A stretch of 64,000 bases of DNA, from positions 1 through 64,000 of the forward strand of contig JAKUUM010000001.1 in the NCBI GenBank assembly GCA_022447065.1, given 5' to 3'. The position numbers and the translations under genes were made by a program. Source of the stretch: SAR86 cluster bacterium. GTDB lineage: Bacteria; Pseudomonadota; Gammaproteobacteria; Magnimaribacterales; Magnimaribacteraceae. This document shows positions 25,890 to 29,031 of this stretch, one piece after another. The notes beneath the pieces were generated by a model. That model was not told where the DNA came from, searched no databases, and saw nothing but the letters and a program-made list of their open reading frames with translations. Numbering within the stretch: position 1 is the stretch's first letter; the number at the start of each line of letters is the position of its first letter.

Positions 25890-26453
25890 CTATCTTCTTC
25901 CTTGGTATTCACCATTCCTGGTGTCAACCGTAACAACATCACCTTCAGAAAGAAATAAAGGCACTTTTATATTGGCCCCTGTCTGAAGAGTAGCGGTCTT
26001 GCTTCCTCCTGAGGCAGTGTTTCCCTTTACGCCGGGATCAGTTTGAGTAATTTTTAAATCAACAAAGGTAGGAGGAACAACAGATATGGGGAAATTGTTC
26101 CACAGCAGAACTTTACAGACGTCTTCTTCACTAAGCCAATTCCTGTTTTCACCTATCATATTTTCTGTTATCAACACCTGGTCAAATGTTTCCAGGTCCA
26201 TGAAATACCAATCAGAACCCTCAGTATAAAGATATTGCATTTCGAGCTCATTAACATCTGCAGACTCTAATGATTCGCCTACTTTGCAAGTTTTTTCTCC
26301 AACCCTACCTGAAACAAGATTTCTAAATTTAACTTTACTGAAAGCCTGACCTTTTCCAGGTTTTATAAATTCTTCTTCAATAATTTCACAAGGATCAGAA
26401 TCTATCATTATCTTTAATCCGGGCTTAAAATCGCTAGTTGAATAAGAGACCAA
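25890..26453 (-). CDS. efp: Translation elongation factor P
   Basis: EF-P, 187 aa, which relieves ribosome stalling at consecutive prolines. The modified lysine sits at position 34 in IKPGKGQAF, the form that EpmA/EpmB lysylate in gammaproteobacteria. The KOW-like N-terminal domain and two OB domains are complete, ending DVVTVDTRNGEYQGR. The modification genes epmA and epmB are not in this window. It lies 10 nt downstream of the DUF1295-PSD fusion gene and just upstream of argS, all on the minus strand. Confidence 0.95.
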   Translation of the reverse strand: MVSYSTSDFKPGLKIMIDSDPCEIIEEEFIKPGKGQAFSKVKFRNLVSGRVGEKTCKVGESLESADVNELEMQYLYTEGSDWYFMDLETFDQVLITENMIGENRNWLSEEDVCKVLLWNNFPISVVPPTFVDLKITQTDPGVKGNTASGGSKTATLQTGANIKVPLFLSEGDVVTVDTRNGEYQGRR

Positions 26454-26463
26454 TTATTACCTT

Positions 26464-28119
26464 TTAATTACTTAGTTTTGACAAATCTAATAATTCTTCT
26501 CCAAATTTTACAGGCTTCGACTCATACAAGAAATTATTATCTAAGGAAACATTTTTTGGAAATAACAAGATAACAGTAGACCCCAATTGAAAATAGCCTA
26601 GTTCCTGACCTTTCTTTATTACAGCTAATTCTGGATTGGGTCCTTCATTCCACGAATCAACAATCTTTTGCTTCTTAGAATTAATACCTTCATACCAAAA
26701 TGGGACAATACTTCCTACCAAAGTGGCTCCAACACTCACTAAACCATAACTTATGAGTTCAGATTGTATAAACGTCAAAGTTCTTTCATTTTTACTATAG
26801 AGAGACCTAATCTTTTGAGAAGACTTTTGATTAACGCTATATAAATTCCCCTTAAGGTACTTAGTCTTTTTAATAATCCCATTCAGAGGGAAATGAATTC
26901 TGTGATAATTAGAGGGAGCCAGATAAATGGTGACATACCAACCATTCTTGAAATATTTTTCCAGACTTTTGTCTTCTAAAAGCTCATGAAGGCCGTAACG
27001 AATTTTTTTGGCTTGAACCAAAGTTTCCTTTTTTATTTGACCTAAACTAACAATTGTTCCATCTACAGGTGAAATAACCTTATGCTTAGAGGGACTAATC
27101 TTCCTTGCTGAAGGCTTTAATTTTCTAGTAAAAAAATCATTGAAATTTGAAAAATCTTTAATCTCTTGATGGGTTGACTCCTCCAAATCCGGCTCATAAA
27201 AGAAGGAAAAAGAACGAATAAGGAAATTTTTTAATAGTCTATTTTCTGATTTAGAAATTAAGCCCGCAAAAGAAGTTATTTGTTTGTGTGGAGTCAAGAA
27301 AAGAACTAAATCCGAAAACCTATTGGAATTTTGTAGAAAGTCAGGTATTAGCTTATTAGTAGTGTTGATGTACCTTTCATAATCTCGGAATTCAGCCAGC
27401 ATAGTTTTTTCAATATTTTTTATAGGCGCCCGAAGAATAAACAAGGACATGACAAGGGGACCATAAAAACTCCATACTCCTACAACGGAATTACAAGCTA
27501 TTATGTAGAGAGCCCACCACTGCAAGATATGACCAAAATAGTTTGGGTGCCTGGTGTAACTCCATAATCCAGAATTTAAGACATTAGCTTTAGAGGGGCC
27601 ATCTAATCTAAAATTTAATAAATCCTTGTCCGATTTAGTTTCTACATAAAATCCAAGAAAAAAGAGTATAAAACCAAAGGCATCTAAAGGATTTAGACTA
27701 CTTGGACCCGGAAGGTAATTTAGTGATAGCAAGGGAGCTATGGCTATAATTTGGATCAAACCCATTGTAAGGAAGATTCTTTGGTAATTTTTTAGACCCT
27801 CTCCACTTCCACTCTTTACTTCAATATGCAGATAAACAGAACCTTTTACGTTTTCTTTCTTTCTCTTATAGAAGTACCAAGAAAGTTTTATTCCCCAAAG
27901 TAATACAAGTGCATTTACTAAAACTTGCCTTAAATTGAAACTAGGATCTTCAAGTAATGCTTCTATCAGCATGGCACACAATGCCAAGAATGGAATTCCC
28001 ATGACCCAGTACATTTCTACTAAAAATAAACGTTCATCATTTTTAACTACAAAGTACAGACAGCTAACTATTGACCAATTGATAAAAGCAAGATAGAAAA
28101 AAAGCTCCAGGATAGACAT
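26464..28119 (-). CDS. Fusion of DUF1295 membrane domain with phosphatidylserine decarboxylase
   Basis: One uninterrupted 551-aa frame. Residues 1-262 are a polytopic membrane domain of the DUF1295 family (steroid-reductase/isoprenylcysteine methyltransferase-like fold) with the signature LWSYTRHPNYFG (185-196). Residues about 275-551 are a phosphatidylserine decarboxylase: NDFFTRKLKP (327-336), SPVDG (350-354), NYHRIHFP (404-411) and the self-cleavage motif LGST (512-515), where Ser514 should become the pyruvoyl group. The PSD half makes phosphatidylethanolamine in the membrane. No separate psd gene is seen. The N-terminal half might act on a lipid, possibly its product; this is inference. 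It starts the efp-argS-yggS-proC-yggT strand run. Confidence 0.88.
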   Translation of the reverse strand: MSILELFFYLAFINWSIVSCLYFVVKNDERLFLVEMYWVMGIPFLALCAMLIEALLEDPSFNLRQVLVNALVLLWGIKLSWYFYKRKKENVKGSVYLHIEVKSGSGEGLKNYQRIFLTMGLIQIIAIAPLLSLNYLPGPSSLNPLDAFGFILFFLGFYVETKSDKDLLNFRLDGPSKANVLNSGLWSYTRHPNYFGHILQWWALYIIACNSVVGVWSFYGPLVMSLFILRAPIKNIEKTMLAEFRDYERYINTTNKLIPDFLQNSNRFSDLVLFLTPHKQITSFAGLISKSENRLLKNFLIRSFSFFYEPDLEESTHQEIKDFSNFNDFFTRKLKPSARKISPSKHKVISPVDGTIVSLGQIKKETLVQAKKIRYGLHELLEDKSLEKYFKNGWYVTIYLAPSNYHRIHFPLNGIIKKTKYLKGNLYSVNQKSSQKIRSLYSKNERTLTFIQSELISYGLVSVGATLVGSIVPFWYEGINSKKQKIVDSWNEGPNPELAVIKKGQELGYFQLGSTVILLFPKNVSLDNNFLYESKPVKFGEELLDLSKLSN

Positions 28120-28263: not shown

Positions 28264-29031
28264 ATGAGGCGTTTTTTTATTACTTTAACATTTCTAGTAC
28301 CAACCCTGCTAGGCTCGGCACTGGTATTAAGTGACCAAATACAACCTTTACTTGACGTAGCAGAAGAACGTGCAGACCAAGAACAAGTATCTCAAACAAA
28401 AATTGATTCCATGGATGATGACACTTCATTGATAGTCAACGAGTACATAACAGTCAGCAAGCAAATAGAAGGGTTGAGGGTATATAACGCTCAAATGAGA
28501 AAGCAAATTGACCGACAAGAAGAAAGGTTAAAAGAGATAGATAAAACCATGAAAGAAGCCCAGGTTATGCAAAGGCAAATACCTCCTTTTACTAGACGTA
28601 TGCTAGCAGGAATTGAGAAATCTATAGAACTGGACATGCCCTTTCACCTGGCTGAAAGAAAAGAAAGGATTGCTTTTGCTAAAGCAGCAATAGACAACCC
28701 AACAGTTTCAAGTGCCGAAGGCCTAAGGCAAGTTTTAGAGACTTTTAATGTAGAAATGGAATACGGAAGAAAGTTAGATAATTACAAAGATACTATTGAC
28801 ATTGAAGGTCAACCAAGAGAAGTAAACGTACTTAGGGTTGGAAGGCTTTCTTTAGTTTATCAATCTTCTGACGGATCTCTGACGGGAGCTTGGGACAATA
28901 AGGAGCGTGAATGGGTAGAGCTAGACAATAGTTACAGGAACCCAACCAAAAAAGGCTTGAGAATTGCAAACAGGCTGGCAACAGTAAGTATGCTCGAACT
29001 GCCAATACCTAATCCAGAGGCAGTGAAATGA
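28264..29031 (+). CDS. Exported DUF3450 coiled-coil protein of TonB system
   Basis: DUF3450-family protein, 255 aa, with an N-terminal signal peptide (FFITLTFLVPTLLGSAL, cleaved before residue about 25) and a long coiled coil (residues about 55-105, rich in Q, R, K and E). Members are encoded at the head of TonB2-type clusters with two ExbB-like proteins; a periplasmic structural or regulatory role in the energy-transducing complex is inferred. A strong AAGGAG ribosome site precedes the ATG. It overlaps the next gene by 4 nt. Confidence 0.82.
   Translation: MRRFFITLTFLVPTLLGSALVLSDQIQPLLDVAEERADQEQVSQTKIDSMDDDTSLIVNEYITVSKQIEGLRVYNAQMRKQIDRQEERLKEIDKTMKEAQVMQRQIPPFTRRMLAGIEKSIELDMPFHLAERKERIAFAKAAIDNPTVSSAEGLRQVLETFNVEMEYGRKLDNYKDTIDIEGQPREVNVLRVGRLSLVYQSSDGSLTGAWDNKEREWVELDNSYRNPTKKGLRIANRLATVSMLELPIPNPEAVK

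Follow-up and report, generated by a model that had tools for sequence, protein, structure and literature searches.

Organization of the D-psd locus

The window analysed here is a stretch of 64,000 nucleotides from the SAR86 contig JAKUUM010000001.1. Its minus strand includes a single stop-free frame of 551 codons (28119..26464) corresponding to a fused gene, in which a DUF1295-type membrane domain is followed by a phosphatidylserine decarboxylase (PSD). The predicted product, P0001 (551 aa; 26464..28119, minus strand), has homologous fused frames in four other genomes. The continuous frame described in the original prediction was therefore confirmed, with its orientation now given. Throughout this work, D denotes the PSD-linked DUF1295-type gene or domain. 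An EF-P-like gene (25890..26453, minus strand) lies directly downstream of psd in every family locus compared. On its 5′ side, the D-psd operon is bounded by a divergent neighbour (28264..29031, plus strand), the first gene of a DUF3450/ExbB/ExbD/TonB-like cluster, named by sequence appearance. A longer stretch was compared for 16 family genomes, and in all of them the locus is fixed as D-psd-efp-argS plus further genes, divergent from the DUF3450/ExbB/TonB-like cluster.

The second half of P0001 (aa 264-551; 26464..27330, minus strand) corresponds to a complete PSD. It matches Pfam PS_Dcarbxylase (PF02666) at aa 326-544 with 201.9 bits (cut-off 22), covering profile positions 1-197 of 198, and the NCBIfam PSD equivalog TIGR00163 with a score of 195 (cut-off 111.75). 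A phmmer comparison with E. coli PSD (6l06) aligned aa 266-513 with an E-value of 1.6e-44. This half is full length, starts at aa ~265 and retains the complete N-terminal helical region of the E. coli enzyme. In structural comparisons with E. coli Psd (6l06, 7cnw/7cnx), Foldseek gave a TMt of 0.81-0.83 to 7cnx, with 33% identity in the structure alignment. Based on the family alignment, the counterparts of the E. coli Asp/His/Ser residues are D353, H406/H409 and S514. The LGST autocleavage site is located at aa 512-515 (26575..26586, minus strand); cleavage there would release an alpha chain of aa 514-551 and leave the DUF1295 domain on the beta chain. Domain matches and catalytic residues thus agree with the earlier description of a full PSD with LGST at 512-515. 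The PSD itself appears ordinary, and the difference from E. coli Psd, which has no DUF1295 domain, is the seven-TM domain placed ahead of it on the same chain.

The DUF1295-derived domain (aa 1-262; 27334..28119, minus strand) has seven predicted TM helices and matches Pfam DUF1295 (PF06966) at aa 30-254 with 136 bits (cut-off 20.4). Modelled alone with AlphaFold, it reached a pLDDT of 88.9; the model of the whole protein had a pLDDT of 83 and a pTM of 0.59, with the orientation of the two domains uncertain. The SYTRHPNYFG signature is present as predicted, although it spans aa 187-196 rather than 188-196. Its RHPNYFG motif (aa 190-196; 27532..27552, minus strand) is followed by H197, a position occupied by E or D in 52 of 53 ordinary DUF1295 proteins.

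Conservation and origin of the fusion in SAR86 family f1

Our sample of family f1 consisted of the window assembly and 34 other genomes. Thirty-four of these genomes have psd, the exception being a genome that is 50% complete (G034). In all 34 psd-bearing genomes, D is either fused with psd or located directly upstream of it. The check for the fusion in relatives proposed with the original prediction showed it in every one of the four g1 genomes, that of the window among them, and in one genome (G004) of the sister genus g2, with fused frames of 551, 547, 541, 541 and 531 aa. The fusion is thus not missing from close relatives, and the frame is not broken in them; an assembly or frame artefact was ruled out by these uninterrupted frames in five separate genomes. 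In the other 29 genomes, D and psd are separate genes, with junctions ranging from an overlap of a few bases (ATGA-type) to a gap of ~40 bases in one genome. An in-frame start is lacking near the D-PSD junction of L004, a g1 gene, which means that its PSD has to be translated within the fusion; possible ATG, GTG or TTG starts occur at the junctions of other fused genes. Among named genomes, the nearest relative is the SAR86 metagenome-assembled genome REDSEA-S09_B4, with 51% identity.

The PSD-linked D sequences form one clade with support of 100/100. In a tree of 14 neighbouring genes, genus g5, in which the genes are split, groups with the fused g1 (support 100), and the fused g2 is placed outside (94). 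This topology is explained equally well by two fusion events and by a single fusion combined with a fission. The D clade sits on a long branch, and the tree did not show from which part of DUF1295 it arose. At the same efp/DUF3450 junction, SAR86 families f2 and f4 carry an ordinary DUF1295 gene in the opposite orientation and with psd absent (L140:6962-7807, L141:4864-5760 and L142:7716-8666); these genes are a candidate source of D.

Occurrence outside family f1

Across 274 class genomes and 299 phylum genomes, a whole-protein search gave no match spanning both halves outside family f1. No DUF1295 gene adjoining psd was found among the class matches listed, nor at 19 psd loci of the class. 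A profile built from PSD-linked D gave at least 133 bits for the main f1 matches and 98 bits for one extra fragment, compared with a best score of 99 in other SAR86 genomes. The best score elsewhere in the class was 135, for an ordinary DUF1295 protein with no psd within 3 kb; the profile thus mostly separates f1 members from other DUF1295 proteins. The f1-type psd is absent from other SAR86 families, some of which carry a shorter psd adjacent to a pssA-like gene. In an order-level sample covering families f2-f4, 40 SAR86 genomes were of good quality, and only 14 of these had a recognisable PSD; the PSD bearers of f2 and f3 had the shorter PSD beside the pssA-like gene, and no recognisable PSD was found in the f4 genomes among those listed. 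In the open-access literature, we found no description of the DUF1295-PSD fusion or of a repurposed DUF1295 clade; the one paper that mentions both terms is unrelated.

Similarity of the first domain to known membrane enzymes

Beyond DUF1295, the first domain has weaker matches to related membrane enzymes. P0001 scores 39.8 bits against Steroid_dh (PF02544; cut-off 22.6), with NYFGH where an acid is expected, and 27.2 bits against ICMT (PF04140; cut-off 24). Against PEMT (PF04191), the whole protein scores 22.2 bits, below the cut-off of 25 and only the fifth-best Pfam match, and a region-wise search gave 27.1. The modelled fold aligns with ICMT 5vg9 (TM 0.44) and with the steroid 5-alpha reductase PbSRD5A 7c83 (TM 0.46-0.48). 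The likeness to steroid 5-alpha reductases (SRD5A2 7bw1, PbSRD5A 7c83) comprises the fold and a weak sequence match in the cofactor half, but the TM-score is only 0.44-0.48, the identity is 14-16% and the acid of NYFGE is replaced. With ICMT (5vg9, 4a2n) and PEMT, P0001 has in common the RHPxY motif and the membrane fold, but the use of SAM is only a candidate property. As modelled, the fold resembles both ICMT and steroid 5-alpha reductase without favouring either cofactor.

The window genome also encodes a phosphatidylcholine-synthase-like protein (G000:C4:44461-44853; L147:1249-1962), with E-values of ~1e-60 to the NCBIfam Pcs models and scores below their equivalog cut-offs. It also carries a pssA that exceeds its NCBIfam cut-off. 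The Pcs-like protein suggests that phosphatidylcholine may be made from choline by a route that bypasses the methylation of phosphatidylethanolamine (PE). Based on the sub-threshold PEMT match, the higher ICMT and Steroid_dh scores, the loss of conserved positions described below and the Pcs-like gene, N-methylation of PE by the first domain seems unlikely. Another protein of the same clan, with SRD5A-like motifs (PNYLGEMIEWLGW, FPDYPSDRKAIIPYLL), is encoded in the window genome (G000:C15:14244-14516; L148:1447-2193). It may relate to the steroid metabolism that has reportedly been described for SAR86.

Erosion of the DUF1295 core in the PSD-linked clade

By alignment with 53 ordinary DUF1295 proteins, we defined 23 near-invariant columns, of which the ordinary proteins keep 98% on average and 83% at minimum. 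A stand-alone ordinary DUF1295 gene of the window (P0002; 47806..48678, minus strand), cited in the original prediction as a comparison, proved to be real and keeps 23 of 23 positions. P0001 resembles such proteins in sequence, predicted fold, seven TM helices and, as in the rest of g1, the RHPNYFG motif. The PSD-linked clade differs from them in its tie to psd, in conserved residues of its own and in the loss of at least five of the 23 positions. P0001 keeps 18 of 23, having lost D35, R78, D93, R95 and Q166. The fraction kept varies among genera, from 0.74 in g1 and 0.65 in g2 to 0.57 in g4, 0.42 in g6, 0.39 in g5, 0.34 in g3 and 0.17 in g7. The acid after NYFG is replaced (by H, T, Q, I, L, M or N) in all PSD-linked D sequences but one. 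Some members have a Pfam DUF1295 match of only 31-33 bits. In g7 (G009) the RHPNYFG segment is deleted, leaving a D of 207 aa without a Pfam DUF1295 match, with the gene still in place. Genus g1, including P0001, retains GLW-RHPNYFG, W201, the acid at 237 and the C-terminal Y..Y..T..P. Across the four g1 genomes, RHPNYFGH-LQWW is unchanged despite a D identity of ~50%, and the equivalent of D164 is N in the three genomes other than that of the window.

Selection and clade-specific residues

Of 18 pairs, 17 gave dN/dS values for D (NG86) of 0.13-0.28, motif-less pairs among them; the exceptional value of 1.38 rests on a dS of only 0.012. Judged by these ratios, the D clade is under purifying selection and is not decaying. 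Frameshifts near homopolymers occur in D of two g6 genomes, G015 (L029) and G029 (L031/L104), and may reflect either misassembly or genuine loss.

A consensus particular to PSD-linked D, R64-Q65, S132-x-N/H134-x-L/M136-x-G138 and D146, spans seven genera. Of the R64-Q65 pair (27925..27930, minus strand), R is present in 29 of 29 and Q in 28 of 29 PSD-linked D sequences; R64 is found too in part of the ordinary DUF1295 family. In the loop S132-x-N-x-L-x-G138 ... D146 (27682..27726, minus strand), S132 and D146 are present in 29 of 29 sequences, S132 being specific to PSD-linked D and D146 occurring also in 16 of 53 ordinary proteins. These conserved residues are located at helix ends and in loops with little positive charge; the positive loops of D are those at 29-31, 89-105 and 174-191 and the C-terminus. 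Following the positive-inside rule, the clade-specific residues, including those of the S132-D146 loop, are predicted to face the periplasm, and the C-terminus of D, at which PSD starts, to be cytosolic.

D as a proposed membrane partner of PSD

We propose that D is a repurposed, probably non-catalytic membrane partner dedicated to PSD and hard-wired to it by fusion, a reading to which we assign a probability of roughly 0.6 and in which the PSD half is probably a working decarboxylase. It is favoured by features read directly in the sequences: the linkage in 34 of 34 genomes, the core erosion, the dN/dS values, the new conserved residues, the single clade and the L004 junction. In an ancestor of the SAR86 family, a DUF1295 paralogue would have become the first gene of a psd operon, after which D would have lost core positions stepwise and acquired a conserved set of its own facing the periplasm. 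As a physical partner, D may place the enzyme in the membrane, deliver phosphatidylserine to it or receive PE from it. In g1 and g2, loss of the stop codon between D and psd would have produced a single chain in which the predicted cytosolic C-terminus of D runs into PSD. The PSD would cleave itself at G513-S514, with the membrane domain staying on the beta chain. The mostly intact C-terminal half of the g1 domain, where a cofactor could still bind, the g6 frameshifts and the intact membrane helices of PSD argue against a non-catalytic partner.

The original prediction had the fusion point to a next step by the first domain on the PE formed, such as N-methylation, or to anchoring of the decarboxylase. 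A functional tie between the halves is supported by our analysis. A next lipid step by the first domain is not, given that core positions are lost in every genus and that RHPNYFG is deleted in g7 with purifying selection persisting. It is possible, but rather unlikely, that the first domain of g1 is still an active lipid reductase or methyltransferase with PE or a similar lipid as its substrate, with activity lost only in the other genera. The 18 of 23 positions kept by P0001 include nearly all of those on the C-terminal cofactor side, the invariant RHPNYFGH-LQWW stands out against the divergence of g1, the Steroid_dh and ICMT scores exceed their cut-offs and the fold matches 5vg9 and 7c83. 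However, P0001 has lost D35, R78, D93 and R95 (the ED-x-R loop) as well as the acid at 197, the three other g1 genomes have N in place of D164, and the sister genera retain the D gene without the motif; for a methyltransferase in particular, the whole-protein PEMT score and the Pcs-like gene are further counterevidence.

A reading of D as a neutral remnant, in which a decaying paralogue was carried along by its operon position and by stop-codon loss, would agree with the strong erosion of family positions, with the frameshifts in G015 and G029 and with Pfam matches that are weak in some members and absent in g7. It is nevertheless improbable in view of the low dN/dS in 17 of 18 pairs, the retention of D beside psd in all 34 genomes despite their small size and the clade-specific residues conserved in seven genera. 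A merely passive anchor, compatible with seven N-terminal TM helices, a predicted cytosolic C-terminus and eroded family positions, is very improbable. Simple anchoring is not obviously needed by a PSD that keeps its own complete N-terminal helices; in 29 of the 34 genomes, D is a separate protein that could not anchor PSD without binding it specifically; and the conserved residues are predicted on the membrane face opposite PSD.

In the main bacterial pathway of PE synthesis, PSD catalyses the final step. SAR86 is among the most abundant bacterial groups of the ocean. To our knowledge, little has been established about how PSD is organized with other membrane proteins. A natural fusion, together with a nearly contact-spaced two-gene version throughout the family, points to a specific partner of PSD. 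In addition, the series from g1 to g7, in which the motif goes from mostly intact to deleted, would provide a natural case of a membrane enzyme becoming a non-catalytic subunit. A more speculative role for D, to which we give very little weight, would be that of a lipid-conducting subunit passing new PE from the cytosolic face to the periplasmic leaflet by means of the clade-specific loops, which, if true, would couple PE synthesis and trans-bilayer movement in one protein. As for the ordinary DUF1295 proteins, one of them (L136:3046-3837) is located in an apparent cyclopropane-fatty-acid-synthase/DUF1365/FAD oxidoreductase/lipocalin operon, named by sequence appearance, a context hinting at a lipid role.
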